Of a stretch of DNA of 64,000 nt, positions 2,128 to 40,106 are shown piece by piece. The stretch is taken from the NCBI GenBank assembly GCA_012520915.1, contig JAAYNJ010000017.1, positions 1 through 64,000 of the forward strand, read 5' to 3'. The DNA comes from Oscillospiraceae bacterium. GTDB taxonomy: Bacteria > Bacillota > Clostridia > Oscillospirales > Ruminococcaceae. The first letter of the stretch is position 1; each line of letters opens with the position of its first letter. The position numbers were made by a program, and so were the translations under genes. Below the pieces are notes generated by a model. It was not told the origin of the DNA, searched no databases, and saw nothing but the letters and a program-made list of their open reading frames with translations.

Positions 2128-2472
2128 TCACAGGTAAATTACGATTATTCCGACGAGTATGAGAAAAACCCCGAATATCTTCTTTTTTGAAACGGATTCA
2201 CCGAGAAAAAGATAGCTGAACAACAATACGAATATCTGGCCTAACGACTCAGGTATAGGGGTATAACTGAGCGGTACTTTACGAAGACCAATGAAAGATA
2301 AAACCATAGATGCCGCAATCAAAATATAGGCTGAGATAACTTTTAAGTTTAAAAAGGCTGCAATTGAACTTTTGTGTTTTTCTATAGCGGAACGTTTGAG
2401 AAGAGTTTGGGCAAATGAAGCGATAAATACTCCTGCGATAATTATAAGAAGATTTGCAGTCAAATCATTCAT
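2128..2472 (-). CDS. small EamA/SMR-type membrane protein, ArnF-like flippase subunit
   Basis: 114 residues with four predicted transmembrane helices, the size and shape of half an EamA transporter or an SMR protein. The C-terminal part (VPLSYTPIPESLGQIFVLLF, then FLGESVSKKKIFGVFLILVG) matches the helix 3-4 pattern of ArnE/ArnF proteins, where Glu follows a Gly before the last helix. It overlaps the preceding, similar small membrane gene by 8 bases, so the two are translationally coupled. In E. coli ArnE and ArnF form a heterodimer that flips undecaprenyl-phosphate-aminoarabinose. The glycosyltransferase neighbour makes the same role likely here. A generic small-molecule SMR exporter is the alternative. 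Confidence 0.7.
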   Translation of the reverse strand: MNDLTANLLIIIAGVFIASFAQTLLKRSAIEKHKSSIAAFLNLKVISAYILIAASMVLSFIGLRKVPLSYTPIPESLGQIFVLLFSYLFLGESVSKKKIFGVFLILVGIIVIYL

Positions 2473-2839
2473 CCGAAGTCACCACCAAAATCGCACCGGC
2501 GAGTATTATTGCGGCGCCGATGACGAGGCTTATTGAAACCCTCTCCTTGAAAACGACTATGCCGAAAACCACTCCCCATACAATAGAAAGGGAACGGTTC
2601 GCATATGCGGTTGACAGCGGAAGCTTTTTAAGCGAAAACTGCCAGATAACAGCATAGAGCATCATAACCGTCAGCGAAGAACCCGCCATAAGAAAAAAAC
2701 CGAAAGAAAAAATTTCAGCTTTTCCGGCGAGTTTTAAAAAAACTGCCGATGCGGAATAAAAGATGATTCCGAGATGCAGGATTAAAAGAGTAAAGAGGTA
2801 ATTTCTATCTTTTATTTTTTTCTTGTCAATAATAACCAT
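2465..2839 (-). CDS. small EamA/SMR-type membrane protein, ArnE-like flippase subunit
   Basis: 124 residues, four predicted helices. The segment LSTAYANRSLSIVWGVVFGI resembles the ArnE helix-3 pattern, followed by VFKERVSISLVIGAAIILAG. The chosen start is ATG 2839, because further upstream the frame lies inside the glycosyltransferase gene and reads as non-hydrophobic sequence. It begins 26 bases after the glycosyltransferase stop and overlaps the next gene by 8 bases. Probably the second half of a heterodimeric lipid-linked sugar flippase (inference from pairing and context). Confidence 0.7.
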   Translation of the reverse strand: MVIIDKKKIKDRNYLFTLLILHLGIIFYSASAVFLKLAGKAEIFSFGFFLMAGSSLTVMMLYAVIWQFSLKKLPLSTAYANRSLSIVWGVVFGIVVFKERVSISLVIGAAIILAGAILVVTSDE

Positions 2840-2865
2840 GGCTTCATCCGGTTTTTTAGACTGTA

Positions 2866-3801
2866 CTAATTTTCTTCTGCATTCAACTGCCGACGTACGA
2901 CATATTGTGGAAGGGAACTGACCGTCATGTAGGTTCTGCCTATATATTCTCCGAGAAGACCGAGCATTACCATTATCATGCCGCCCAAAAACAAAATTAC
3001 GGCCATAATGGATGTAAAACCGAGCATCACATCGGGGTTTACAATCTTTCTGACGATGAGGATTAAACCGTAAATAAAACCGGTTAGTGCAATTATGATA
3101 CCGAAAGATGCAGTAATCCTTATCGGCTTTATCGTGAAGTTTGTAAAACTCGACATCCACATTGAGAAAAGCTTTCTGATAGTGTAGTTGCTTCTCCCGG
3201 AAATCCGCTCATTGTGGATGGAAATGTCCACGTTTACAACCTTTATTGTAACTTCCGAAAGAAACCCGCCTCTTGAAACAAAGGGGCTTTTATACTTTTT
3301 CAGCTGATCAACGGAAAATCTCGACAAAGCAAAATAACTGCTCAGGCTTATTCCTTTGGGTTTTGTCCCATTGAATTCGGAAATTGCACCGTGGAGCCTG
3401 CTCATCAGTTTTTTTATTATACCGTGATTTTTGTGCTTGAACTTTCCATAGACGATATCATTTCCTTCAAGCACCGCATCGACGAGCTTATATATCTCTT
3501 CGGCGGGATGCTGACCGTCATCATCCATGAAGACGCAGACATCGCCCTTGACATAGTGGAGAGCTGCGAGTGTTGCGGTTTCCTGACCGAAGTTTTTTGA
3601 AAGATCGATGCCGGTAATTTTTTTATCTTCCTCGCATAACTGTTCTATACATTCAAAAGTTCCGTCTTCCGAACCGTCGTTGACCAGGACAAACTGATAA
3701 TCAACGTCGTTTCGCTTTTTTATCTCTTCACGCACACGGCTGACAACATTCCTTATTGTTTTACCGGATTTGTAACAGGGTATTGCTACAGTAACTACCA
3801 A
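2866..3801 (-). CDS. polyprenyl-phosphate glycosyltransferase, GT2 family, ArnC/GtrB-like
   Basis: 311 residues. The GT-A domain starts VVTVAIPCYKSG, with LVNDGSEDGT (nucleotide site), SKNFGQETATLAAL and the metal-binding MDDDGQHP near residue 95. Two transmembrane helices (about 228-250 and 262-286) follow, then the family-typical MLGLLGEYIGRTY. This architecture is that of ArnC, GtrB and dolichyl-phosphate-mannose synthases, which transfer a sugar from a nucleotide donor to undecaprenyl phosphate on the inner leaflet. Start is TTG 3801 with GATAGGAGAG upstream. The next two genes encode small ArnE/F-like proteins, so the lipid-linked sugar is probably flipped outward. The donor is inferred to be an aminosugar because a WecE-like gene heads the operon. 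Confidence 0.88.
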   Translation of the reverse strand: MVVTVAIPCYKSGKTIRNVVSRVREEIKKRNDVDYQFVLVNDGSEDGTFECIEQLCEEDKKITGIDLSKNFGQETATLAALHYVKGDVCVFMDDDGQHPAEEIYKLVDAVLEGNDIVYGKFKHKNHGIIKKLMSRLHGAISEFNGTKPKGISLSSYFALSRFSVDQLKKYKSPFVSRGGFLSEVTIKVVNVDISIHNERISGRSNYTIRKLFSMWMSSFTNFTIKPIRITASFGIIIALTGFIYGLILIVRKIVNPDVMLGFTSIMAVILFLGGMIMVMLGLLGEYIGRTYMTVSSLPQYVVRRQLNAEEN

Positions 3802-3819
3802 AATACTCTCCTATCTGAA

Positions 3820-4482
3820 CTATCCGCCTATTCTAATCCCTTTGTATAGATTTTCCGTAAATTCTTTAGGAAACCCCGCTTTCTTCATATTGAAGTCGGT
3901 CTTGTCGATGTCATACTCCACACGCAATATTTCAATATTGCCCGACTTGTCCAAAACGGCGAAAGAAGCTCTCGGGTCATGGTCCCTCGGCTGACCTACC
4001 GACCCGGGATTTGCGTGGGTTTTATCTCCTTTTTTAAATATAAAAGGTATGTGTGTATGTGCGGTAAAGAAGAACTTCTGAGGTATCTCTAACGGAAAAG
4101 AATAATCATAAACATATTCGTCGAGATAATCGTTCATACCGCCGTGAACAGCAAAAAAGACTGTATTTGAAATAGATGTAGCCGAGCTTTTCAACCAACT
4201 GAAGTTTTCAGGTGTTATTATCTTTCTCTGATATGAAATTGCAAAATCCACTTTTGATGATCTGCCGCTGCCGACGTTGTTTATGAGATAGTGGTCGTGA
4301 TTTCCCAATATGTTTGAAATCCCTCTATCCGCAAGCATGCGTATACATTCATTTATCATACTGTAGTATCCTGCAACATCCCCGAGGGAATAAACAGTCT
4401 CTATCCCCATTTGGTCGATTTTGCCAAGCACCGATTCGAGAGCGGGCAGATTTCCGTGAATGTCGGATATTATAGCTGTCAA
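3820..4482 (-). CDS. calcineurin-like metallophosphoesterase
   Basis: 220 residues with the full metallophosphatase motif set: SDIHGN near the N-terminus, SLGDVAGY, LGNHDHY, VHGG and TAHTHIPF. This is the compact YfcE/MJ0936-like phosphodiesterase class without extra domains. The ATG overlaps the ATP-grasp stop by 4 bases, so the two proteins are co-translated. Its job in a sugar-modification operon is unclear. It could hydrolyse a nucleotide or polyprenyl-phosphate intermediate, or remove a regulatory nucleotide. No signal peptide is visible, so it is cytoplasmic. Confidence 0.85.
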   Translation of the reverse strand: MTAIISDIHGNLPALESVLGKIDQMGIETVYSLGDVAGYYSMINECIRMLADRGISNILGNHDHYLINNVGSGRSSKVDFAISYQRKIITPENFSWLKSSATSISNTVFFAVHGGMNDYLDEYVYDYSFPLEIPQKFFFTAHTHIPFIFKKGDKTHANPGSVGQPRDHDPRASFAVLDKSGNIEILRVEYDIDKTDFNMKKAGFPKEFTENLYKGIRIGG

Positions 4483-5450
4483 CTGTGAATCACCAAGTCC
4501 TTTATATATCTTGTCGCAGTGCCTTTTGAAATTATTGACGGCGCGGGACGCTCATTCATTATGTAGCGACTTATGCACATATCCGGCTCGTTATAACCGA
4601 ACTTTGCCCTTATTGAAACCGCGGATGAGATTCTCGGGTTGACTTCAAGTAGGAATACTCTGCTGTCTTCCTTTCTGAACTGGTAGTTTGTAGGCCCTTC
4701 GGGCTTTAAAAGCTCGGTAATCCTCTTTGTTGCGACCTCCAGGGATTCGTCAAAAACAACAGTCGCCTTTGATGTCGCGCCTTCCTGACTCAGTTTTCTT
4801 CTGAGATATATTGAATTAATAAAGCTTCCGTCGCCCTGCCCGAATACACTGACGGTGTACTCGTCTTCAATATCTCCCACTATCTTTTGAGCCATAAATT
4901 CATCGCCCATCTTCTGACCGAAAAAATTGAAATCTTTTTCGGAATTGATGGTTATAATCCCTTTTGACGCCCGACCTCGCCGGGGTTTTAAGAGAAAGGT
5001 GTCGCCCAAAGATTTTCTGCAGTGGGAATAATCAAAATTCGTTGACGAATCTATTACATATTCGTCCAATCCGTTTTCTAAAAGCAGCAACCCCGTCTCC
5101 CATTTATCTTCACAGAGTTCGATAAGAGATTTTTTGTTTATGACCATCTTTCGAACGGATTCTCCAAGGGATTCCCGCACTCCGGAAATTTTTGAAATCT
5201 CCTGTTCGATGCCGAACAGAACCAGGTCGATTTCCAAATCATCAATAAGTTTAACCAAAAATTCGGGATAGTTGTCATCAGCCGCCGGTATTGAAGTAAC
5301 AAATTCGTCGCAAAAAAATTGTCCCACCGCATCAGAAAAAATATCGGTGCCTATAATATAGGGATCATATTGACCTAAACGGAGACAATCGACAATTCCG
5401 TACCCGACTATTGCACCGACAGCAGTTACAAGTATTCTGTGTTTTTTCAT
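4479..5450 (-). CDS. ATP-grasp ligase, carbamoyl-phosphate-synthase-like
   Basis: 323 residues. The N-terminal pre-ATP-grasp Rossmann region begins ILVTAVGAIVGYGIVDCLR. The ATP-grasp fold follows, with LLKPRRGRASKG (nucleotide lysine region, about 150-162) and VFLLEVNPRIS near residue 265, whose Glu and Asn are the usual Mg ligands. Such enzymes activate a carboxylate as acyl-phosphate and join it to an amine, thiol or similar. Between a 4-aminosugar transaminase and a polyprenyl glycosyltransferase, the simplest inference is N-acylation of the aminosugar, possibly with an amino acid. Relatives occur in surface-polysaccharide clusters but I cannot name a characterised orthologue. Its 3' end overlaps the phosphoesterase start by 4 bases. 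Confidence 0.75.
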   Translation of the reverse strand: MKKHRILVTAVGAIVGYGIVDCLRLGQYDPYIIGTDIFSDAVGQFFCDEFVTSIPAADDNYPEFLVKLIDDLEIDLVLFGIEQEISKISGVRESLGESVRKMVINKKSLIELCEDKWETGLLLLENGLDEYVIDSSTNFDYSHCRKSLGDTFLLKPRRGRASKGIITINSEKDFNFFGQKMGDEFMAQKIVGDIEDEYTVSVFGQGDGSFINSIYLRRKLSQEGATSKATVVFDESLEVATKRITELLKPEGPTNYQFRKEDSRVFLLEVNPRISSAVSIRAKFGYNEPDMCISRYIMNERPAPSIISKGTATRYIKDLVIHS

Positions 5451-5469
5451 ACAGTGACTCCAAACTTAA

Positions 5470-7167
5470 TTACACAAGGGGGCTTTGAATATGAACCGGC
5501 ATTTTATAGGCAGGCTCGGGGTGCACTTCAGTATCGGAATCCATAACAACTTCACAGAAGAGGGGCCTGTCATTTAAAAAGAGCTCTTTATGCTCAAGTA
5601 TCTCGCCTGCCGAACGGACGGCTATATAATCAATACCGTATGCCTTAGACAGAACTTTGTAGTCGGGAGAAGAAAAACCCTCAATGGAACCTATATTGTT
5701 ATCAAAAACGATATCCTGATAAGTTCTTATCAGACCCAAAGACGAGTTGTTCATCACAAGCATTTTTATAGGAAGATTCTCGCGCGAAACGGTGTTTAAC
5801 TCCTGAACATTCATTTGAAAACCTCCGTCTCCGCTTACGCAAAGCACCTTTGATCCCTTCTGCGCCACTGCAGAGCCTATTGCGGCCGGGAGAGAAAAGC
5901 CCATGGAGCCGAGTCCGCCGGAATTTAACAAACGCATATTATCTCTGATGCAAACGGATTGCGCCGTCCACATCTGATTTTGGCCGACATCTGCGGTTAT
6001 TACATCATTTCCAGAAAAGAGCATGGAGGTTTCGCGTATAATTTCGTTAGGCAAAGTTTTGTCGTCGGATTTGTCAACGGCGGGATAGATTTCTTTGAGG
6101 TGATTTAACCTCTTTCTCCATTTTTTATGAGCTAAAAATACCCCGTTAGACAACACCGAGAGTGCTTTGATGAAGTTTTCAACACTGCAAAAAAGCGACT
6201 TAACGGGGAACGGGATGTTCTCTATTTCCAGGGGATCGATTTCAACATGAACTATTTTTGCTTTTTTTGCAAATTCATTTGGAAACTCGCCTATCTGCTT
6301 GGGATCGAGCCTAGAACCCAAAACCAGCAACAAATCGCATTCGCTTATGGCAATATTTGCGTACCTGTTCCCGTAAGAGCCAATAAAGCCTGAAAACAGG
6401 GGATTGTCATGCGGAATAATATCCAAACCCTGTAAGGAGGCGACGACGGGAATATCCAGCTGTTTTGCGAGATCCGCGAGAACACCGTTTCTTAAACTCG
6501 CCGCCCCGCCCCCGCAGAGGATTAGCGGGCGTTTTGAGTTCTTAATCATCTTTAAAACTTCGTTTATCGCCGCCATATTTGGGAAAGGAAGCACTTCATT
6601 CCGGTCATCGCTGAAAGTTGAATAAAAACTCCTGCATTTATCGGGGTCTATTTCCGATGAAGCGATGTTGTGGGGAATGTCCAAAAGCACCGGACCCTTC
6701 CTTGAGTCCAAAGCAAGATAAAGAGCTTTTTCAAGGCGAAAACGGATGTCTTCGGGTGATTTAAGCGTCTTAGCGTATTTAGTAAAATGTGATACGGTTT
6801 TTACGATATCGAATTGCTGAAATCCCTGCTGACGCACCCTTTTGTTTTTTATATCAGAATAATTACTTAGCTGTCCGGTGATGAACAGGCAGGGGATTGA
6901 GTCAAACCAGGCGTTTGCTATACCGGAAATGAGGTTTAGTGCACCGGGACCTCCCGATGACACGCATACGGAGGTTTTGCCTTTTATTTGGGCATAAGCA
7001 TTTGCGGCAAACGCGGCTCCCTGTTCATGGTGGGTTTGAAGATAGCGGAGTTTGTCGTTTTTTGATATTGAATCTATTATGTGTGTAATATTACTTCCCT
7101 GAAATCCGAATACGGTGTCGATTCCCAGGTTTGATATGGACTGTGAAATATAGTCCGATACTTTCAT
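5470..7167 (-). CDS. thiamine-diphosphate-dependent enzyme, acetolactate-synthase-like, of a polysaccharide cluster
   Basis: 565 residues with the three-domain ThDP fold. The catalytic Glu lies in THHEQGAAFAANAYAQ near residue 46. SSGGPGALNLISGIANAW is in domain 1, ILCGGGA opens domain 2, and the Mg/ThDP motif GDGGFQMN...NN starts near 432. Start ATG 7167 sits 8 bases after GGGGAG and shares its A with the WbqC stop (TGATG). An upstream in-frame TTG at 7182 is not needed. There is no acetolactate synthase small subunit, ilvC or ilvD nearby, so branched-chain amino acid synthesis is unlikely. A precedent is YerE, a ThDP enzyme that adds a two-carbon branch to a keto-deoxysugar. Supplying a 2-keto or 2-hydroxy acid for the ATP-grasp enzyme is another possibility. 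Confidence 0.8.
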   Translation of the reverse strand: MKVSDYISQSISNLGIDTVFGFQGSNITHIIDSISKNDKLRYLQTHHEQGAAFAANAYAQIKGKTSVCVSSGGPGALNLISGIANAWFDSIPCLFITGQLSNYSDIKNKRVRQQGFQQFDIVKTVSHFTKYAKTLKSPEDIRFRLEKALYLALDSRKGPVLLDIPHNIASSEIDPDKCRSFYSTFSDDRNEVLPFPNMAAINEVLKMIKNSKRPLILCGGGAASLRNGVLADLAKQLDIPVVASLQGLDIIPHDNPLFSGFIGSYGNRYANIAISECDLLLVLGSRLDPKQIGEFPNEFAKKAKIVHVEIDPLEIENIPFPVKSLFCSVENFIKALSVLSNGVFLAHKKWRKRLNHLKEIYPAVDKSDDKTLPNEIIRETSMLFSGNDVITADVGQNQMWTAQSVCIRDNMRLLNSGGLGSMGFSLPAAIGSAVAQKGSKVLCVSGDGGFQMNVQELNTVSRENLPIKMLVMNNSSLGLIRTYQDIVFDNNIGSIEGFSSPDYKVLSKAYGIDYIAVRSAGEILEHKELFLNDRPLFCEVVMDSDTEVHPEPAYKMPVHIQSPLV

Positions 7168-7862
7168 CAAACATCTCCCCAAATATAATCGGCGGTTTTG
7201 TCTCCTAGATTGAATAGCATGTCGAGAATGGTCACATAATGGTTAAAGGGTTTGTATAGCTGACTGTAAACCGGATATTCATAGGACATGTATTCGAGTT
7301 TTATGTCTGCGTCGACATACTTTTGTTCGTCGGTGAATGCCCTGGCAGCCGGACCGTTTATAAAATGATTGCAACCGAGTTTTTTGCAGATGCTGATAAC
7401 CTTTTCACCGTCTTTATCCCCCTGACAATTGAGGTCGCTCGATTTATAAAACCCGGTCGATATCCCAAGAATGTTACATATATATTTCGTCATGAATATG
7501 TTCATTTCGGAAAGATTGGTCCAGGTTCTTTCAAGATAAAAATCAAAAAGAAGTTGTTCGTATTTTGATAAAAACGGTGATTTTGCGTATGTTAAACTCA
7601 AGGTTTTATGATGTTTCGCTTGCCAATTTACCGACGTATCGATTTCGGCCTCGCATATTAACTGATTCATTTTCCCTTTGGTCAATACGGGTACCGTCAA
7701 CCAGACATCACCGTTTGAGGTGGGAATTTTATTTCTGCTTCGCCAATCCCTCTTTGTAAACTGAACATCGTCATAAAAAACAAATATGTCGACGCGGTTT
7801 ATCATATCAAAAACGCCCTTCCAGGGGATATAATTCGGCTGAAGCATTGCAACACTTTTCAT
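7167..7862 (-). CDS. WbqC-like family protein
   Basis: 231 residues. The N-terminus SVAMLQPNYIPWKGVFDMI, with FYDDVQFTKRDWRSRNKI following at about residue 31, is typical of the WbqC-like family found in O-antigen and capsule clusters. C-terminal features include FINGPAARAF and a Tyr-rich region near YEYPVYSQLY. The family recurs beside DegT-type aminosugar transaminases, so a role in modifying the amino group or handling an amino-acid substituent is likely, but I know no firm reaction to assign. It overlaps the DegT gene by 4 bases (ATGA) and the ThDP gene by 1 base, so the three are coupled. No signal peptide or membrane segment. Confidence 0.8.
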   Translation of the reverse strand: MKSVAMLQPNYIPWKGVFDMINRVDIFVFYDDVQFTKRDWRSRNKIPTSNGDVWLTVPVLTKGKMNQLICEAEIDTSVNWQAKHHKTLSLTYAKSPFLSKYEQLLFDFYLERTWTNLSEMNIFMTKYICNILGISTGFYKSSDLNCQGDKDGEKVISICKKLGCNHFINGPAARAFTDEQKYVDADIKLEYMSYEYPVYSQLYKPFNHYVTILDMLFNLGDKTADYIWGDV

Positions 7863-8992
7863 TTACTATCACCGAAATATTGATGAACGCTTTCGATTAT
7901 ATATCCGATTTCATCGTCGGTTAAATCAGGAAAAATCGGTAGTCTGAGAAGTCTTGCGGAATACTCTTCGGTCAATGGCAAATCTTCAGATTTATAACCG
8001 TAGCTTTTTCCGTAAGGGGATGAGTGGAGAGGTATGTAGTGGAATACAGCCCCTATGCCTTTTTCTCTAAGATAATTCAGAAGGTCGTTTCTCTCGGTAG
8101 CAGTGTTGAGGAATATATAAAAAATGTGAGCATTGTGTTCGGAATATTCGGGGATATACGGCCGTTTTAAAAGGCCTTTCACTTCTAATTCTCCAAGTCC
8201 GTCAAAGTATTTTTCCCAGATTGAAATTCGCTTGGATTTGATTTCGTCAAATCTTTCAAGTTGCGCGGTGAGCACCGCCATCAGAATATCTGAAGGAAGA
8301 TAGGATGAACCGAAATTCTGCCAAGTGTATTTATCAATCTCCCCTCTGTAAAAACTGCTTCTGTCGGTTCCTTTTTCCCTTATAATTTCTGCGCTCTTCA
8401 TTTCTTCGTTGCTCTTTATGAAAATTGCTCCGCCTTCGCCGCAGGTATAATTTTTTGTTTCATGGAATGAAAAACAGGCATAATCACTGTCAAACCCTGC
8501 AGGTCTTCCTTTATATTTACTGCCGAGCGATTGGGCTGAGTCGAGAACTACTTTAAGATTATATCGTTCGGCAATATAATTTACGGAATCAATATCGCAA
8601 CAGACACCGGCATAGTCTATCGGACATATTGCTTTGGTTTTCTCGGTTATAAGCTCCTCTATCCTGTTTGTATCGATATTCATGGTTCGGGGATCTATCT
8701 CGCAGAATACAGGCTTTGCACCTCTGAGGATGAAGGCGTTGGCGGTTGATGAAAAGGTAAAAGAAGGGATAATGACCTCATCCTCCGGTTCAAGTCCGCA
8801 CAACAAAGCGGCAAGCTCCAAGGCATGAGTACAGGAAGAAACCATAAGTACATTCGACATTCCGGTCTTATCGAAAAAAAGACGAGTTGCGGTTTCGGTA
8901 AAGGGTCCGTCACCGCATATCCTGCCTGTTACGGCTTTTTTGGCATAGTTCAACTCAAGTTCGGTAATTGAAGGTTTACAAAAAGGAATCAT
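7859..8992 (-). CDS. wecE: dTDP-4-amino-4,6-dideoxygalactose transaminase, WecE/RffA-like
   Basis: 377 residues, a full-length DegT/DnrJ/EryC1/StrS aminotransferase. Most of the chain can be matched to remembered E. coli WecE: MIPFCKP at the N-terminus, SFTFSSTANAFILRGAKPVF, the PLP-lysine segment FSFHETKNYTCGEGGA near residue 181, EIIREKGTDRS, YTWQNFGSSYLPSD and FHYIPLHSSPYG. WecE converts dTDP-4-keto-6-deoxyglucose to dTDP-Fuc4N with PLP and glutamate. This is the first gene of the operon, with a consensus promoter at 9036-9064. The dTDP-glucose synthesis and dehydratase genes are absent here and must be elsewhere. Exact sugar specificity is inferred from family resemblance. Confidence 0.85.
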   Translation of the reverse strand: MIPFCKPSITELELNYAKKAVTGRICGDGPFTETATRLFFDKTGMSNVLMVSSCTHALELAALLCGLEPEDEVIIPSFTFSSTANAFILRGAKPVFCEIDPRTMNIDTNRIEELITEKTKAICPIDYAGVCCDIDSVNYIAERYNLKVVLDSAQSLGSKYKGRPAGFDSDYACFSFHETKNYTCGEGGAIFIKSNEEMKSAEIIREKGTDRSSFYRGEIDKYTWQNFGSSYLPSDILMAVLTAQLERFDEIKSKRISIWEKYFDGLGELEVKGLLKRPYIPEYSEHNAHIFYIFLNTATERNDLLNYLREKGIGAVFHYIPLHSSPYGKSYGYKSEDLPLTEEYSARLLRLPIFPDLTDDEIGYIIESVHQYFGDSK

Positions 8993-9035
8993 TTAAGCAC
9001 CAAAACCTCAGGAGAAATTAATATATTCACGAATA

Positions 9036-9064
9036 ATTATATAATAAGGTAAATGTTATGGCAA
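9036..9064 (-). promoter_or_regulatory. sigma-A type promoter of the aminosugar operon
   Basis: On the minus strand TTGCCA (9064-9059) and TATAAT (9041-9036) are separated by exactly 17 bases. The start would lie near 9029, about 37 bases before the wecE-like ATG. It stands back to back with the rightward promoter at 9104-9132. Confidence 0.75.
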
Positions 9065-9103
9065 TAAACTATACGTCGCCGGAAATTGTGCAAATCGGAT
9101 TTA

Positions 9104-9132
9104 TTTACAGCCAAATGTGACTTTGATATACT
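9104..9132 (+). promoter_or_regulatory. sigma-A type promoter of the large membrane protein gene
   Basis: TTTACA (9104-9109) and TATACT (9127-9132) are separated by 17 bases. The TTG start at 9162 follows GAGGTG at 9151. The interval 9065-9103 between the divergent promoters could host a shared operator, but no clear palindrome is seen. Confidence 0.72.
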
Positions 9133-9161
9133 GAAGTCATATTTTTAAAAGAGGTGTAAGT

Positions 9162-11150
9162 TTGAAAATCAAAGCGGAAAATTACAGGAATAGTATTGCG
9201 GTTTCTCTTGCCGTATCGGTTGTTACATTGGTTCTTGTACTGATATTTGCCACCCCTCGTGTTTTAAACAACGATGACTTTATAATACATGGAATCACCT
9301 CGGGAGCATACGGAATGCCGTCGGCGGTTACGGTTCACACCAACGTAATATTGGCGTATCTGTTGACCATAATGCAGAGTGCCGTACCGGCGATGAACTG
9401 GTTTTCGGCAGTTGAAATCCTGATTTTATTTTTTGCGTTTTTTTTATTTTCGTTGCTTATATTTGACAAAAGCCGGAGTTTTAGTGGTTTTTTGTCTGTT
9501 TTAATTCTTCAGCTCTCGCTTGCACCTCATTTTTATATCGAACTGCACAACTCTAAACTCCTGCCGCTTGTATCCTTTTGTTCGTTGTTGTCGATATTCC
9601 ATTTCAGTTGCATGAAGAAGCGGATGCCGGTTGTTGTAGGAATAACCGTTGCGGTTCTGTCTTCATTCATCAGGTTATACGCCTTTTTGATCGGGGCGGC
9701 TATTGCGGCAGCGGTAATTTTACCGCACCTCATCCGCGACGGAAAAACCAATGATGGATTTTCCGTAACGGAAATCTTTAAAGTGAAAAAAGTTCCGGTT
9801 CTCATACTCTCTTTTACTGCGGTTGCCGTGTTTGCCCTATCATTCGTTGACAGTTTTGTGATAAGGAGAATGGAGGGTGCAACGGAATATCGGGAATACA
9901 ATACGGCAAGAGGAATTGTTTCGGATTTTTCGCTGCCCGACTACTATGAAAATATTGAAAAGTTTAATGATATTGGGATTTCTGCAAACGATTATGCTTT
10001 GTTGGAGGAATGGAACTTTGCGGATTTGAAGAAATTCGATAAAAACACGCTTTATGCGGTTTCCGATATCCGCGAAAATCGCAGTTTGGCAGAGGCATTT
10101 GGTGATGTAAAAAAAGAAATTCTCAGAGAGGTATTGTTGCCGTTTTACCAAATTACCCTGCTTTTTTCTCTGCTTGGAATTGTTTTTTCGGATAAAAAAG
10201 AGAGAATATCGGCGGTAATCGCCCCGATCATGTATATTCTCGCAATACTGTCTATGAGTCTTATCGGCAGGGTGACCCACTGGCTGATGTCCGGTGTTGC
10301 CGGATGCGTATTTGCCTGTTCGATTTATGTTCTGGCAGGAGAGAAGGAAGAAAGAATTAAAAATACTGCCCTAAAAGTTTTCCTGACGGCTTTAGTTTTG
10401 GCGGTGTCGCTATATATGAATTTTGCATCCTTAAATGTCAACAGAGACGAATTCAATACCCGTGCGGCAGATATATATACGATGCTGGGGGAGAGGAGTG
10501 ATGAGCTGTATCTCATGGATCACGCCACTCAGCCTGCAGTCGAAATACACAGGATATATCCCGCACTTAAACCCCTCCCCTTCGGTATTTACGGCAACTG
10601 CTATGCTTTGGGCGGATGGGATACCATGTCGCCGGCAAAAAACAGTATTTTAAGAAGATACGGGGTCGAATCTTCGTATGATATGCTGTTTAAAAACGAA
10701 AATGTATTTCTTTGCGATACTAAAAAGTATGGGGAAAAACTGATTTTCATCAGAGAAAACTACAGCGAAAATGTCAATATGTCCCTCTATGATGTAGTCG
10801 GAGGTTTTTATATTTTTGCGTTCTCGGATATAATTTATCCGATAGGTAAGGAAACAGGCTACGAAGTAGTTGAAGCGGTGTTGGAACCCGATCAGATTAT
10901 ACCCGATCTTGTTTATGTCGGGATTTCGATGGCTGGCGACAACGATGCAATCAAATCGGTTTACATAAAAATAACTGCTTCCGGAAAGGAAAGATACTAT
11001 AGAGCAAGACTGATTAAAACCGACAACGGTTTTGCTGCGGTGATGTCGATGCCGAATGAAGAAAATCTTTTTTATGCAGATGCAACTGCAGAAGTTATAA
11101 TCAACACATCCGATGGGTACAAGACGATAGCACAGACTGATTTTAAATAA
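9162..11150 (+). CDS. polytopic membrane protein, probable GT-C type glycosyltransferase
   Basis: 662 residues with about ten hydrophobic helices in the first 430 and a soluble C-terminal domain of roughly 230 residues. Just after the first helix is LNNDDFIIHGITSGAYG (about 33-50). Adjacent acidic residues at this position are the usual catalytic or metal-binding feature of GT-C enzymes, which use polyprenyl-phosphate sugars on the outer face. It has the general look of large unnamed membrane proteins in Gram-positive surface-glycan clusters, but I do not recognise a named family. Start TTG 9162 has a GAGGTG site. Divergence from the ArnC/ArnE/ArnF-like genes suggests it is the final transferase of that pathway (inference). 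The C-terminal domain could bind the acceptor glycan or protein. Confidence 0.6.
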   Translation: MKIKAENYRNSIAVSLAVSVVTLVLVLIFATPRVLNNDDFIIHGITSGAYGMPSAVTVHTNVILAYLLTIMQSAVPAMNWFSAVEILILFFAFFLFSLLIFDKSRSFSGFLSVLILQLSLAPHFYIELHNSKLLPLVSFCSLLSIFHFSCMKKRMPVVVGITVAVLSSFIRLYAFLIGAAIAAAVILPHLIRDGKTNDGFSVTEIFKVKKVPVLILSFTAVAVFALSFVDSFVIRRMEGATEYREYNTARGIVSDFSLPDYYENIEKFNDIGISANDYALLEEWNFADLKKFDKNTLYAVSDIRENRSLAEAFGDVKKEILREVLLPFYQITLLFSLLGIVFSDKKERISAVIAPIMYILAILSMSLIGRVTHWLMSGVAGCVFACSIYVLAGEKEERIKNTALKVFLTALVLAVSLYMNFASLNVNRDEFNTRAADIYTMLGERSDELYLMDHATQPAVEIHRIYPALKPLPFGIYGNCYALGGWDTMSPAKNSILRRYGVESSYDMLFKNENVFLCDTKKYGEKLIFIRENYSENVNMSLYDVVGGFYIFAFSDIIYPIGKETGYEVVEAVLEPDQIIPDLVYVGISMAGDNDAIKSVYIKITASGKERYYRARLIKTDNGFAAVMSMPNEENLFYADATAEVIINTSDGYKTIAQTDFK

Positions 11151-11177: not shown

Positions 11178-12302
11178 ATGAAATACAGAAAATTCGGAAA
11201 TACGGGATTTGACGTTTCGGCATTGGGTTTCGGAAGTATGAGAATGCCGCTTGTGGAGGGGGCAAAAGATGATTCCGAGGTAGATGTCGACCTGGCGATT
11301 GAAATGATAAGAACGGGTATTGACGGAGGAATCAACTATGTTGACTCTGCATGGGCATATCATGGAGGAGAAAGTGAAATCATAGTGGGTTCGGCACTCA
11401 AAGGGGGCTATCGCGAAAAGGTGAAGCTGGCGACAAAATCTCCCTTGTGGTTGATTGAGAAGGAAGATGATTTTGACAGAATCCTCGATAAACAACTTGA
11501 TAAACTGAAAACCGATTATGTGGATATGTATCTTCTTCATGCAGTAGACAACGACAGATTCAAAAATATAATATTGCGTTTGGATTTGCTGACTAAAATG
11601 GAAGAAGCGAAAGCGGACGGACGTATACGCCATATCGGATTTTCTTTCCATGACGGCTACGACGTGTTCCGAAATATAATAGATACATATGACGGTTTCG
11701 AGTTTTGCCAGATTCAGATGAATTACATAAATGTGGAACATCAAGCGACACTTAAAGGCCTTAAATATGCCGCTGAAAAAGGTTTGGCTGTTGTGATAAT
11801 GGAGCCGATTCTCGGAGGTAAGCTTGCGAATTTGCCTGATAGCATGTCTGCAAAACTGCCTGAGGGTAAAAATGCCGTAGAAGCTGCTCTCGATTTCCTT
11901 TGGGATATGCCCGAGGTCAGTGTCGTTTTAAGCGGAATGAGCACATTAGATCATGTAAAAGAAAATCTCAAATATGCTTCAAACTCGGAAGTCGGAAAAC
12001 TTACAGAAAAAGATTTTAAAGCTTATTCGCTTATCAGAGAGGAGTATAATTCGCTGACACTCATACCCTGCACCGCCTGTGAATACTGCATGCCTTGTCC
12101 GGTTGGGATAGAAATACCGAGAATGATGGAAGCGTATAACAGTTCTATTATCAAGGGATATGGGGTGGCGGTCAGCGCATATGAAAAACTTGTTGTCGGT
12201 GCGGACAAATGCATAGCTTGCAGACAGTGCGAAAAAGTCTGCCCTCAAGGAATAGTCGTGAGCGAATGGATGAAGAAAATAGCATCAAAATTATCCTCCT
12301 GA
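11178..12302 (+). CDS. aldo/keto reductase with C-terminal 4Fe-4S ferredoxin domain
   Basis: 374 residues. The AKR barrel begins MKYRKFGNTGFDVSALGFGSM, with the catalytic Asp and Tyr in NYVDSAWAYHGG, Lys in ATKSPL and His in LLHAV. The last 90 residues hold two cysteine clusters (CTACEYCMPCP and CIACRQCEKVCP), enough for iron-sulfur binding. This is the common clostridial 'aldo/keto reductase / 4Fe-4S protein' type, whose substrate is generally unknown. It starts 27 bases after the membrane-protein gene with GGGAGATTGAA upstream, so it is probably in the same transcript, which ends at the terminator at 12353-12382. Whether it takes part in aminosugar chemistry is not shown. Confidence 0.85.
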   Translation: MKYRKFGNTGFDVSALGFGSMRMPLVEGAKDDSEVDVDLAIEMIRTGIDGGINYVDSAWAYHGGESEIIVGSALKGGYREKVKLATKSPLWLIEKEDDFDRILDKQLDKLKTDYVDMYLLHAVDNDRFKNIILRLDLLTKMEEAKADGRIRHIGFSFHDGYDVFRNIIDTYDGFEFCQIQMNYINVEHQATLKGLKYAAEKGLAVVIMEPILGGKLANLPDSMSAKLPEGKNAVEAALDFLWDMPEVSVVLSGMSTLDHVKENLKYASNSEVGKLTEKDFKAYSLIREEYNSLTLIPCTACEYCMPCPVGIEIPRMMEAYNSSIIKGYGVAVSAYEKLVVGADKCIACRQCEKVCPQGIVVSEWMKKIASKLSS

Positions 12303-37302: not shown

Positions 37303-38733
37303 TTATTCCATGTCGGGGTACAATAATTTCAGATTTCTCATATCTTCAAAGTCTCCAAGGTCGTTGATGGATATATGAGAAGCATCGATATAATTTTCTC
37401 TGCTGTATCCGGGCTGTGAAAAATGGGAGGGGATATCACCTCTCAGTTGTCCGGAAACGCTCTTTGCCCTCAAAAGACAGAATTCCTGAAATGTATCCAC
37501 TGCCAGCAGAAAATCTTCGTGGCTACAGAATTTTGTCTTATCCTTCATAACATAGGGAGAAATCATCTTTGCGGTTTTAGCGGTTTCTTTAACGAAGCAA
37601 CCCGAATCGAAAAAATTTGAAATAAAGTCTTCGTAAATATTATGGTACTTTTCTTTATAGGCGGGGTTTGCCATGACGTTGGAAAACATAGGCCTTTTGT
37701 CCAGCACATCCCCGAGGGCGGGACTGTCTATGGGAAGATTTACAAAGAGTGTCGGGTCGTTTACGGGATCAGTCATACCCAGGGCATAGGTTCCGTAAGC
37801 GAGATTGTAATCCCATGGAATCATCGTCAACATACCGTCTTTTTCGTAGAGAAAATAGTTATGGCCTGTTTGTCCCAAGTAGCTGTCGAAGTTTGCCACA
37901 AAACTCTGCACCGTAAAATATCGAAGCAGGTTGTCCATATCGATTATTTTTTCAAGATCTTCGCCGACGGATAAAATTTCAAGCGACTTTATAAGACGTC
38001 TTTTATCTTCATCGCTTGGCTTAAACCTCGCTTTTCTGAAGATGTTGTCGTAATTTGCAAAGTCATCTCCGGTATAAATCAGGGCTACATCGGTATTTTC
38101 GTCCTTAAGACGCCTGTAGTCGGGTTTATATAATTGGCCGTAATCAATTCCGAAGTTTCTCTTTGCAAAAGCGTTTTCAACCTCTTCAATTGCAACATAA
38201 AGCCCCCAATCCTCACCGTTTACGGTTATGAAGACATAGCTGCAGAGAGAGGAGGGAACCTCGAGGTGAGCCATCATTTTATAGGTCATGTATTCCTTGA
38301 GAAAGCTGTTGTCCTGAAAGGAACTGTTCAGGGATACCTTGTCCAATCCGTGATATGTCAGGTTTTTATCGAAATGGTCGAACTCGATTTTAAATCCGAA
38401 ACGCTTTGAACCGTATTTTTGTATTTGAGCCAGGGAATTGTTGCCCTTAACCCTAAGCCCGACATTCTGAAAGACCTCGTTGTCGATTGTAACGTCGACA
38501 CACACATACTCCTTGTCTTTTGCGTTTTTAAGCAGCGATTCCCAAACTTCTTTATCAATTTGTATATCCAACTCATGAACAATCCCGTCATTGAAAAGTC
38601 TGTTGGCGTAGGGAGGATTTGATGTCGACTTTTTTAAACCGAAGGATTCTCCGTTGATAAAAGCAAAAACAATGAATACGGATATAAAGACTATTGAGAT
38701 TATGATTTTGTCTATGTGTTTTGAATTGAGCAT
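37303..38733 (-). CDS. CotH-family protein kinase-like protein, membrane anchored
   Basis: 476 residues. One N-terminal helix (about 9-27) anchors or exports the protein. CotH-family features are RLFNDGIVHELDIQI, GLRVKGNNSL, KRFGFKIEFDHF, YVFITVNGEDWGLYVAIEEVE and the metal-site motif TMIPWDYNLAYGT. B. subtilis CotH is an atypical kinase that phosphorylates spore-coat proteins, but homologues occur in non-sporulating contexts too. Here it ends an operon with DUF4956 and VTC-domain genes, a combination seen repeatedly in bacteria. The substrate is unknown. The export helix suggests that it acts at the cell surface. Confidence 0.85.
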   Translation of the reverse strand: MLNSKHIDKIIISIVFISVFIVFAFINGESFGLKKSTSNPPYANRLFNDGIVHELDIQIDKEVWESLLKNAKDKEYVCVDVTIDNEVFQNVGLRVKGNNSLAQIQKYGSKRFGFKIEFDHFDKNLTYHGLDKVSLNSSFQDNSFLKEYMTYKMMAHLEVPSSLCSYVFITVNGEDWGLYVAIEEVENAFAKRNFGIDYGQLYKPDYRRLKDENTDVALIYTGDDFANYDNIFRKARFKPSDEDKRRLIKSLEILSVGEDLEKIIDMDNLLRYFTVQSFVANFDSYLGQTGHNYFLYEKDGMLTMIPWDYNLAYGTYALGMTDPVNDPTLFVNLPIDSPALGDVLDKRPMFSNVMANPAYKEKYHNIYEDFISNFFDSGCFVKETAKTAKMISPYVMKDKTKFCSHEDFLLAVDTFQEFCLLRAKSVSGQLRGDIPSHFSQPGYSRENYIDASHISINDLGDFEDMRNLKLLYPDME

Positions 38734-38742
38734 GAACAGTAC

Positions 38743-39414
38743 CTAACTCAGGTAATCTCCGTTATAACTGACAAGCACGGCGTGATTTACCCCTTCGATA
38801 TCGAACAATCGGTTTACAAATGAAGACTCTCCGTTTTTTAGACGCACTTCATAATTGAATTCCGCCATATCCCGGCTGACGGTTTTGCTTTTGAGTACGG
38901 ATTTGCTGACATTATTGTCAATAAATTTTTTCAATTCTTCTTCTGCAGAACTGTTACTGCAACGAACCACAAGGATATAAGAGGTATCGCTGAAATTGCG
39001 GCTGCTGAATATGAGAATAATGATACCGATAAACAGACTCCCGAAAAATGCAAGAGGGATCAGACCTGCCGCCGTGACAATACCCACTGAAATGCTCCAA
39101 AAGAGAAAGGCTATATCGGTCGGTTCTTTTATCGCAGCCCTGAATCTTACAATCGACAGAGCGCCCACCATTCCGAGCGACAGCACAATGTTGCTTGTCA
39201 CCGCGAGTATTACCAGAGATGTTATCATTGCAAGGGCGATAAGAGATATGCCGAAACCGGAAGAATACATAACTCCCTTATAGGTCTTTTTATAGACAAA
39301 TAGTATGAAAAGACCGAGCACGAATGACAGAAACAGGGCCAACAACATATCTATAGGATATATGCCGCCCACCTTTTCCAAAAAGCTTGATTTAAAAATG
39401 TCGTTGAATGTCAT
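38743..39414 (-). CDS. DUF4956 membrane protein
   Basis: 223 residues. Four predicted helices lie within the first 140, including LSLGMVGALSIVRFRAAIKEP, which is characteristic of DUF4956. A soluble alpha/beta C-terminal domain of about 80 residues follows. Function is unknown. It is commonly encoded next to VTC-domain polyphosphate-polymerase-like proteins, as here. RBS is ACAGGGGGGAG. Confidence 0.85.
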   Translation of the reverse strand: MTFNDIFKSSFLEKVGGIYPIDMLLALFLSFVLGLFILFVYKKTYKGVMYSSGFGISLIALAMITSLVILAVTSNIVLSLGMVGALSIVRFRAAIKEPTDIAFLFWSISVGIVTAAGLIPLAFFGSLFIGIIILIFSSRNFSDTSYILVVRCSNSSAEEELKKFIDNNVSKSVLKSKTVSRDMAEFNYEVRLKNGESSFVNRLFDIEGVNHAVLVSYNGDYLS

Positions 39415-39434
39415 AACTCCCCCCTGTAGTTTAA

Positions 39435-40106
39435 TTAATCGTATCTTCTCGATAAAGCATATTTTGAATAGGCGCCCCTCCGCCTCGAATCGAGCCCGAC
39501 TGCAAGACGTACGATATCGGGAATAAACTCATCGTACTTGACCTCCAAAACGGCATAACTTGAGTTGTCAGATTTTACCAGCGGGATATCGAAATTCAAA
39601 AATTCGGTATTTCCAAAAGCGGTTCTGATATCGCTGTCAAGTGTTATCCTGACGTTTCCCGGCACAAATGTATATGCTTCCCGTCTGTAGTCGACGATAG
39701 TCGAAGGCTTCAATTGGTGCAGTATGATTTTTGAATAAAACTCACCGATAAGATGGTTGTTTGAAACCGCCATCCATTCTACATCGCCATACAATATCTT
39801 TTCCACCTGATTAGCGGTAATCGCGGCGGTCTCCTTTCTTCCGAGTCCCGCAATCTTGACCTTTTTTTCCAACTTAATAAAGGATGGGTCATAGTTGTAC
39901 AATCTGATTCGAAATTTTTCACGACGGCTCACGCCGTCCAACTTTTCTCTAAGAGCTTTATCGTAGATGTTGTCAAAATAGATACTGCGCACACGGTAAT
40001 AACCGTATGCGCCGGAGTTGGCATCAAGGGGAAACAAATTGTCGAGCCTGTTTTTCAGGATATGGTAATCAAAACGGTTTATTTCAAATTTATCCTCGTG
40101 GCGCAT
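39435..40106 (-). CDS. VTC-domain (polyphosphate-polymerase-like) protein
   Basis: 223 residues. The VTC tunnel fold is recognised from YYRVRSIYFDNIYDKALREK, EKFRIRLYNYD, KLEKKVKIAG, IVDYRREAYTF with ITLDSDIRT, and AVLEVKYDEFIPDIV. The basic and acidic residues in these strands correspond to those lining the phosphate tunnel of yeast Vtc4. A role in polyphosphate or related anionic polymer synthesis at the membrane is likely together with the DUF4956 protein. No SPX or membrane domain is attached. RBS is AAAGGGGAGAG. Confidence 0.85.
   Translation of the reverse strand: MRHEDKFEINRFDYHILKNRLDNLFPLDANSGAYGYYRVRSIYFDNIYDKALREKLDGVSRREKFRIRLYNYDPSFIKLEKKVKIAGLGRKETAAITANQVEKILYGDVEWMAVSNNHLIGEFYSKIILHQLKPSTIVDYRREAYTFVPGNVRITLDSDIRTAFGNTEFLNFDIPLVKSDNSSYAVLEVKYDEFIPDIVRLAVGLDSRRRGAYSKYALSRRYD

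Follow-up and report, generated by a model that had tools for sequence, protein, structure and literature searches.

The 64,000-nucleotide stretch of DNA from a gut bacterium of the Oscillospiraceae analysed here (hereafter the window; assembly GCA_012520915.1, JAAYNJ010000017.1) opens contig 10 of a genome of 1.9 Mb, which is 96% complete, and carries nine genes which probably serve transmembrane glycosylation with a decorated 4-amino-4,6-dideoxyhexose. Eight of these genes run leftward, from 8992 down to 2128, and encode in this order a WecE-type DegT aminotransferase, a WbqC-family protein, a thiamine diphosphate (ThDP)-dependent carboligase, an ATP-grasp ligase, a phosphoesterase, a GT2 polyprenyl-phosphate sugar transferase and two small multidrug resistance (SMR) half-flippases. 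According to coordinates and sequence, they are joined by overlaps of 4, 1, 4 and 8 nt and gaps of 19, 18 and 26 nt, while the divergent ninth gene encodes a 662-residue membrane protein resembling GT-C glycosyltransferases. This arrangement, described in an initial annotation of the DNA, is borne out by the open reading frames (ORFs), the family scores and a sister genome (G017), a 75% complete Oscillospiraceae metagenome-assembled genome which is the only other member of the genus in our sample. Since its contig 9 (WRIP01000009.1, locus L014 = L048) holds the nine genes in identical order and orientation, at 36-70% identity, the arrangement is not due to chance. Among the loci read, the complete set is confined to this genus. 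The gene families, the conservation of the operon, the GT-C and BshC-like folds, the ThDP clade and the pairing of modules considered below were all computed directly.

The first gene (7859..8992, minus strand) scores 510.5 bits against PRK11706 of NCBIfam (cut-off 375) and 464.3 bits against TIGR02379 (cut-off 434.85), which places its product in the WecE family, and the nearest solved structures, 4piw and 6blg, are dTDP-4-amino-4,6-dideoxygalactose transaminases. Against the ArnB model it reaches 229.8 bits, short of the cut-off of 631. From these family scores, the enzyme is expected to convert dTDP-4-keto-6-deoxyglucose into a dTDP-4-amino-4,6-dideoxyhexose, the likeliest product being dTDP-4-amino-4,6-dideoxygalactose (dTDP-Fuc4N). 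The genome encodes RmlB (478.2 bits, cut-off 365.1), and the ORFs adjoining its gene were recognized by eye as RmlC, RmlA and RmlD. A Fuc4N-containing capsule has been predicted in a clostridium (PMC12342839), and this sugar in a Gram-positive bacterium is therefore not itself new.

The second gene (7167..7862, minus strand) encodes a protein of the WbqC family (PF08889, 251.6 bits), which is rare, being present in 2 of 148 genomes of the taxonomic family and in 15 of 398 genomes of the phylum, this genome included in both counts. In a collection of named genomes, the best 80 matches listed, hence loci picked by likeness to this WbqC, were considered, and the matches listed came from many phyla. 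A DegT gene scoring at least 250 bits to that of the window is present in 64 of these 80 loci, and lies within 2.5 kb in 46. In the phylum sample, which is not picked by likeness, 10 of the 15 other WbqC stretches contain a DegT match of any kind. WbqC is thus tied to DegT aminotransferases generally, and to the WecE type in its near relatives.

The AlphaFold2 model of WbqC, built from 50 sequences, has a pLDDT of 95 and, when the Foldseek candidates were given a second look with VIA-align, superposed on BshC (4wbd) with a Z of 14.3 over 219 of 231 residues and an rmsd of 3.2. The next-ranked rows, mostly tRNA synthetases and phosphopantetheine adenylyltransferases, have Z values of 8.1 and lower. 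Q8, P13, W14, K15 and G16 of WbqC are invariant. BshC, which binds ADP, is the bacillithiol synthesis enzyme which adds cysteine to an amino sugar. On the basis of this model, WbqC is likely a nucleotide-using ligase and its fold suggests the formation of an amide bond at the 4-amine of the sugar, in which case both enzymes would form amides on amino sugars. The kinship would be at the level of the fold only, as the two families have no detectable profile similarity and the BshC rows exceed WbqC more than twofold in length. Sequence homology between WbqC and BshC was considered and rejected following a negative hhalign comparison. A sequence search of the PDB with WbqC returned a single, chance-level match (E 0.24). 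In the literature search, no functional study of WbqC was found, nor any relevant paper on a Qui4N-glycine O-antigen gene cluster. The wbqC gene of Escherichia coli O121 and Shigella dysenteriae type 7 goes with N-acetylglycyl-Qui4N.

Two further genes appear to be linked to this chemistry. The ATP-grasp protein (4479..5450, minus strand), of the PRK12767 type, scores 227.8 bits against NF009402 (cut-off 218) and has five residues, K155, K163, E269, N271 and R273, which are invariant in seven aligned rows; it is proposed from its sequence to be an acyl or amide ligase. The calcineurin-like phosphoesterase (3820..4482, minus strand; PF12850, 66.8 bits) likewise retains D7, H9, D35, N61-H62-D63, H142 and H144 in all eight rows aligned. 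Among the best 80 named WbqC loci, the ATP-grasp gene (150 bits) occurs in eight, namely L048 (the sister), L049, L050, L064 (Planctomycetaceae), L067 (Paenibacillus), L087, L089 and L108 (Pseudomonas), and the phosphoesterase gene occurs in those very eight. Formyltransferase matches are found in seven of the 80, none of which overlaps with the eight ATP-grasp loci. At 1e-40, the ATP-grasp profile detects 6 of the 398 phylum genomes, this one included, and in three of the five others (G231, G375 and G298) the gene adjoins WbqC and DegT genes. In G344 it adjoins a phosphoesterase and a NeuB-like ORF, and in G149 neither context is present in the 4 kb view. Based on the co-occurrence in the same eight loci and the contexts of the ATP-grasp gene across the phylum, the ATP-grasp protein and the phosphoesterase resemble a movable module for the decoration of amino sugars. 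No paper joining at least three of ATP-grasp, metallophosphoesterase, WecE and glycosyltransferase was found in the literature search. At L034, L035 and L037, in other genomes of the phylum, ATP-grasp, WbqC and DegT genes are adjacent, with LpxC-like and CgeB-like ORFs seen by eye, and in L183 the ATP-grasp/phosphoesterase pair lies beside NeuB-like and SDR ORFs (also by eye), with no WbqC in the 4 kb view.

The ThDP-dependent carboligase (5470..7167, minus strand), which contains TPP_enzyme N, M and C domains and probably starts with the ATG at 7167, not with the TTG at 7182, could be mistaken for acetohydroxyacid synthase (AHAS). Its best NCBIfam match is indeed the AHAS large subunit (TIGR00118, 427.2 bits), its best PDB match is AHAS 5ahk, and the operon is followed downstream by a citramalate synthase gene, cimA (328-1896; 707.8 bits, cut-off 450), so that the ThDP gene might be the acetolactate synthase of the cell, placed by chance beside citramalate synthase, the rest being an ordinary glycosylation system. 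This explanation is very improbable. The TIGR00118 score is under the cut-off of 538.35, no IlvC match is found in this 96% complete genome, and in the sister contig cimA does not adjoin the operon. A profile built from two rows and run on the 398 phylum genomes gave 1187 bits for this genome, 561 for G298 and 533 for G426, the next score, after a gap, being 404. In a midpoint-rooted tree of 30 rows, none of them a characterized YerE, and from which two of the 27 AHAS-ranked loci (L194 and L209) and the ThDP genes of L233 and L234 were left out, the window enzyme falls within a six-row clade (support 100/100) together with the sister, a second ThDP gene of the same genome, G298, G426 and G206, apart from 24 AHAS-type rows. 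Genes of branched-chain amino acid synthesis, recognized by eye, adjoin 22 of these 24 rows, the contexts of the remaining two (L205 and L216) not being judgeable. Because of its score below the cut-off, its position outside the AHAS group, the lack of IlvC and its different gene context, the enzyme is, by sequence and context, not a housekeeping AHAS, and this identity was rejected. Of this ThDP superfamily, the genome has just two genes, and neither falls within the AHAS group.

What the enzyme would do instead can be approached from its relatives. Three of the six clade rows (the second gene of this genome, G298 and G426) sit in loci with RfbF, RfbG and RfbH over their cut-offs, while G206 has no such context in its short view; on this basis the window enzyme is assigned to a sugar-cluster, YerE-like clade. 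This kinship, with one member in the same genome, supports a variant of the proposed system which would keep its core, and in which the ThDP enzyme transfers an acyl unit from a 2-oxo acid onto a keto group of the nucleotide sugar, leading to a C-branched 4-amino sugar by yersiniose-like chemistry together with amination. In PMC12247030, YerE-like enzymes are reported as sugar ring branchers, split transketolases are proposed branchers, and kibdelomycin is described with C3 branching and a transaminated branch. Such ring branching is a possibility to be held tentatively. Branching at C4 would compete with WecE for one ketone and, since WecE uses the C4 ketone and no gene of the operon evidently makes another, ring branching would need a ketone elsewhere. 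Among the operon proteins scanned, there is no CDP-sugar gene, as would be present in a YerE-type context, and no 3-dehydratase or sugar oxidoreductase. The WbqC proteins of L049 and L050 are 63% identical to that of the window, and in both loci a split transketolase occupies the slot after WbqC where the window has the ThDP gene. The WecE/GT2/SMR clusters of G667 and G596 combine an AHAS-like ThDP gene with a split transketolase, LuxE and LuxC. The presence of ThDP and transketolase genes amid acyl-activating genes in these two genomes favors side-chain chemistry. By analogy, a role in building an acyl side chain is thus somewhat likelier than ring branching, at a little under even probability, and a role in neither is doubtful.

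The two clusters of G667 and G596 (L233 and L234) carry two LuxE/LuxC sets and, by eye, an acyl carrier protein, an AMP-ligase and a DRE-TIM aldolase, and represent a more elaborate relative of the window operon. The second ThDP gene of the genome (G000 contig 16, L015:44-10008) is accompanied by RfbF, RfbG, RfbH, a GT2 and a GtrA-like protein (by eye), with a large membrane ORF upstream, and this cluster is like a CDP-yersiniose set which would possess its own loading and flipping genes.

Export of the sugar would rely on the GT2 and the SMR pair. The GT2 (2866..3801, minus strand; PF00535, 91.9 bits) has two C-terminal transmembrane helices by hydropathy (232-250 and 265-283), and its best-scoring named families are PgfS (165.9 bits, cut-off 500) and ArnC (142.8 bits, cut-off 529), neither cut-off being reached. 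At E 1e-80, relatives occur in 7 of 186 class genomes, at eight places including the window, and WecE-like DegT genes accompany them at five (the window, G289, G710, G667 and G596, the last partial at the edge). Homologs of the GT2 and the flippase pair thus do not consistently occur without the sugar-synthesis genes, the pattern named in the initial annotation as refuting its reading, but the link is not universal. SMR1 (2465..2839, minus strand; scanned as 2465-2845) scores 26.1 bits against EamA, under the cut-off of 28.2, and 30.9 against ArnF (cut-off 99); SMR2 (2128..2472, minus strand) exceeds the EamA cut-off with 38.5 bits and reaches 27.9 against ArnE (cut-off 92). For the two proteins, the ArnE scores are 27.9 and 30.5 and the ArnF scores 26.3 and 30.9, all below the cut-offs. 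Each has four predicted helices by hydropathy, and their pairing is indicated by alignment of four genomes (the window, G017, G459 and G667), in which SMR1 and SMR2 form two conserved paralog types. In the window and G017, the pair and WecE belong to one operon; in G667, G596 and G459, the last with a DegT truncated by the end of the contig, a WecE-like gene is the immediate neighbor of the pair. This amounts to three lineages, i.e., this genus, G459 and G667/G596.

These associations bear on the possibility that the operon joins two independent units, one making a sugar which feeds a polysaccharide and the other, composed of the GT2, the SMR pair and the GT-C, carrying another sugar. Most named loci have WecE and WbqC without a close GT2, which scores at least 150 bits in 11 of the best 80, as such a separation would predict. 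The single operon in two species, the WecE-like genes at five of the eight GT2 places and the SMR pair adjoining a WecE-like gene in L033 and L147 argue against two units, and this explanation is improbable. Simpler sets in G289, G710, G911 and G752 associate a WecE-like DegT with GtrA, GT2 and GT-C (GtrA by eye in G752), a GNAT being seen in the first three and not in G752; WecE-like DegT, GNAT, GT2, GtrA and GT-C are found together in L151, L230 and L231. Judging from these families, GNAT would take the place of WbqC and ATP-grasp and acylate the sugar, and GtrA would replace the SMR pair as flippase.

The divergent gene (9162..11150, plus strand) matches no family of Pfam or NCBIfam at E 0.001, its assignment to the GT-C class being one of fold, and its product displays ten hydropathy peaks. 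Structure prediction, suggested in the initial annotation as a check, recovered a GT-C fold: with VIA, rows 1-32 are all GT-C enzymes or complexes containing one, at Z 9.9-14.3, a range to be read with the warning of the aligner that Z up to about 13 may reflect a common arrangement in helical models. ArnT (5ezm), with a Z of 13.0, is tied with other GT-C families. The protein is proposed from this model to be the outer-face transferase. In L014, L049 and L050, too, its gene points away from DegT. Relatives occur in 13 of 391 class genomes and, in nine stretches read from seven of these genomes, a WecE-like DegT is present in three (L147, L151 and L155) and a GT2 in four (L151, L152, L154 and L155), the GT2 of the L147 cluster lying just outside, in L233. 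Residues 566-662 (10857-11147) are predicted to form a C-terminal beta-sandwich matching Ig-like and CBM56 folds (Z 7-8.6), possibly involved in acceptor binding.

Besides the aligner warning, several results weigh against a glycosylation system assembled in this way. The GT-C model, from four sequences, has a mediocre pLDDT of 68.7, and Foldseek found no match for it at E 0.001, the best being 3waj (E 0.0033) and ArnT (0.017). Neither WecE nor GT2 is present in four of the nine GT-C stretches (L148, L149, L150 and L153), so that a GT-C relative alone does not imply the pathway. The WecE-like gene is missing from the stretch read at three of the eight GT2 places (L229, L154 and L232), i.e., G633 contig 85, where 9 kb showed no sugar gene, G633 contig 216, with a GNAT-like ORF and a GT-C, and G688, with a split transketolase, LuxE and LuxC. 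For WbqC, Foldseek returned no match at E 0.001, its top rows being metal-binding proteins with a TM score of about 0.2, and hhalign gave a probability of 0.2% for homology with BshC (50 WbqC against 15 BshC rows). Only one of the 15 other WbqC stretches of the phylum sample, some of them on short contigs, reaches 250 bits for DegT (L039). No RmlB over the cut-off was found in the sister genome, which is 75% complete. Concerning the ThDP enzyme, its clade includes contexts of the ring-branching type, which points to ring branching, the fork joining it with L219 and L220 (G298 and G426) is weakly supported (82/49), the branch of L015 is long, and the letter make-up of the window and sister rows is deviant.

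In Gram-negative bacteria, the Arn system comprises the transaminase ArnB, the undecaprenyl-phosphate transferase ArnC, the SMR-pair flippase ArnEF and the GT-C transferase ArnT. The same order of functions is found in the window operon, and the proposal of the initial annotation that an Arn-like route would make, load, flip and transfer an amino sugar is upheld by the association of WecE-like genes with the GT2 and with the SMR pair, by the GT-C fold and by the RmlB supply. In contrast to Arn, a WecE-type dTDP-hexose transaminase replaces ArnB, the ArnB, ArnC, ArnE and ArnF models all remain below their cut-offs, and no ArnA or ArnD was found among the ten proteins scanned at the operon, the rest of the genome not having been searched for them. 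By family membership, the operon is therefore not Arn, but it is Arn-like in its predicted logic.

This functional series could also mean that the operon is Arn in effect, a cationic 4-amino sugar with a free amine altering the surface charge and the resistance to antimicrobial peptides. The sub-threshold Arn scores, the lack of a deformylase in the operon and the amine-acylating genes of homologous clusters (GNAT, formyltransferase and WbqC) render this quite improbable. The added positive charge initially anticipated is unsupported, because relatives carry genes which would acylate the amine; by analogy with these clusters, the amine is probably acylated or blocked, unless WbqC were to attach an amino acid left uncapped.

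The glycosylation system proposed here fits, by analogy, within a class of multi-component transmembrane glycosylation systems of Gram-positive bacteria, such as GtlA-GtcA-GtlB and CsbB-GtcA-YfhO. As described in PMC8035078, these systems comprise a membrane-anchored GT-A enzyme which loads undecaprenyl phosphate, a small flippase and an outer GT-C transferase. A GT-A enzyme with C-terminal helices is present here (PF00535, two helices), as is a GT-C fold in the model. Differences from the systems described there are that their flippase is GtrA or Wzx, which is usual and not stated to be strict, instead of an EamA/SMR pair, that their sugars are Gal, Glc and GlcNAc and not a 4-amino-dideoxysugar, and that the window operon itself includes a sugar-synthesis and decoration module. 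PgfS, the top named family for the GT2, belongs to the PgfS-PgfM1-PgfE-PgfM2 system of Streptococcus mutans, which, according to PMC5856776, modifies surface proteins and is given as four named genes without WecE, WbqC, ThDP or ATP-grasp. With the YerE-type branched-sugar clusters (PMC12247030), the operon shares a ThDP enzyme from the clade of RfbF/G/H-cluster genes, but it has WecE and N-acylating genes instead of CDP-sugar genes. The combination of ThDP and ATP-grasp enzymes had been regarded as unrecognized and is partly explained: ThDP genes of sugar clusters are the company in which this ThDP enzyme groups, and the ATP-grasp/phosphoesterase pair occurs with WbqC elsewhere.

From this evidence, we infer each reaction of the pathway, the order of the reactions, the final sugar and the acceptor as follows. 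RmlA and RmlB, encoded elsewhere in the genome, would make dTDP-4-keto-6-deoxyglucose, which the WecE-type enzyme would aminate at C4. WbqC, with its BshC-like fold, would then join an amide at the 4-amine, probably to an amino acid or another carboxylic acid, and the ATP-grasp enzyme and its phosphoesterase partner would add or activate a second acyl group. The ThDP carboligase would form a carbon–carbon bond, somewhat likelier in the acyl side chain than in the ring. The finished sugar would be passed by the GT2 from dTDP to undecaprenyl phosphate, flipped in its lipid-linked form by the SMR pair and transferred on the outer face by the GT-C to a surface polymer or protein. In its most specific form, the proposal that WbqC, with a BshC fold, ligates aminoacyl groups to 4-amino sugars and, together with the ATP-grasp and ThDP enzymes, gives an acyl or aminoacyl side chain to a sugar which a Gram-positive bacterium carries on undecaprenyl phosphate and flips with an SMR pair is speculative, the odds being rather against it. 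If true, the interchangeable modules (formyltransferase, ATP-grasp and phosphoesterase, split transketolase and LuxE/LuxC, and GNAT) would constitute a modular surface-sugar code.

With this analysis, the Gram-positive glycosylation class would come to include an SMR-pair flippase of the Arn-like kind and a 4-amino-dideoxysugar bearing decorations. The analysis also provides PF08889 with a testable function, and the new lead of most use is the BshC-like fold of WbqC with its interchangeable partners. Annotation of AHAS-like genes in such loci as enzymes of branched-chain amino acid synthesis should be avoided. Moreover, split transketolases are found in amino-sugar loci outside Streptomycetes, from which the 13 putative ketone-branching split transketolases reported in PMC12247030 originate.

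Regarding transcription, a consensus scan found promoter-like sites facing both directions in the gap between DegT and the GT-C gene, one 5' of the operon (9036..9064, minus strand; TTGCCA-17-TATAAT, 11/12) and the other 5' of the GT-C gene (9104..9132, plus strand; TTTACA-17-TATACT with TG, 10/12). The region contains three such sites, where shuffled sequences gave 1.4 on average (sd 1.1). A terminator was searched for between the operon and cimA and none was found.

As to teichoic acid, one of the acceptors put forward in the initial annotation, PF04464 has one weak match elsewhere in the genome, at C16:13396 (36.2 bits, cut-off 22.1), which neighbors the other sugar cluster instead of this operon and is not decisive. 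A stretch of contig 14 (L218) was inspected and contained no relevant gene. In both species, an aldo/keto reductase gene is located 3' of the GT-C gene (11178-12302 in the window and L014:14335-15447), the two being 50% identical. Further along the window, at 37303-40106, three adjacent ORFs were recognized by eye as CotH-like, DUF4956-like and VTC-like.

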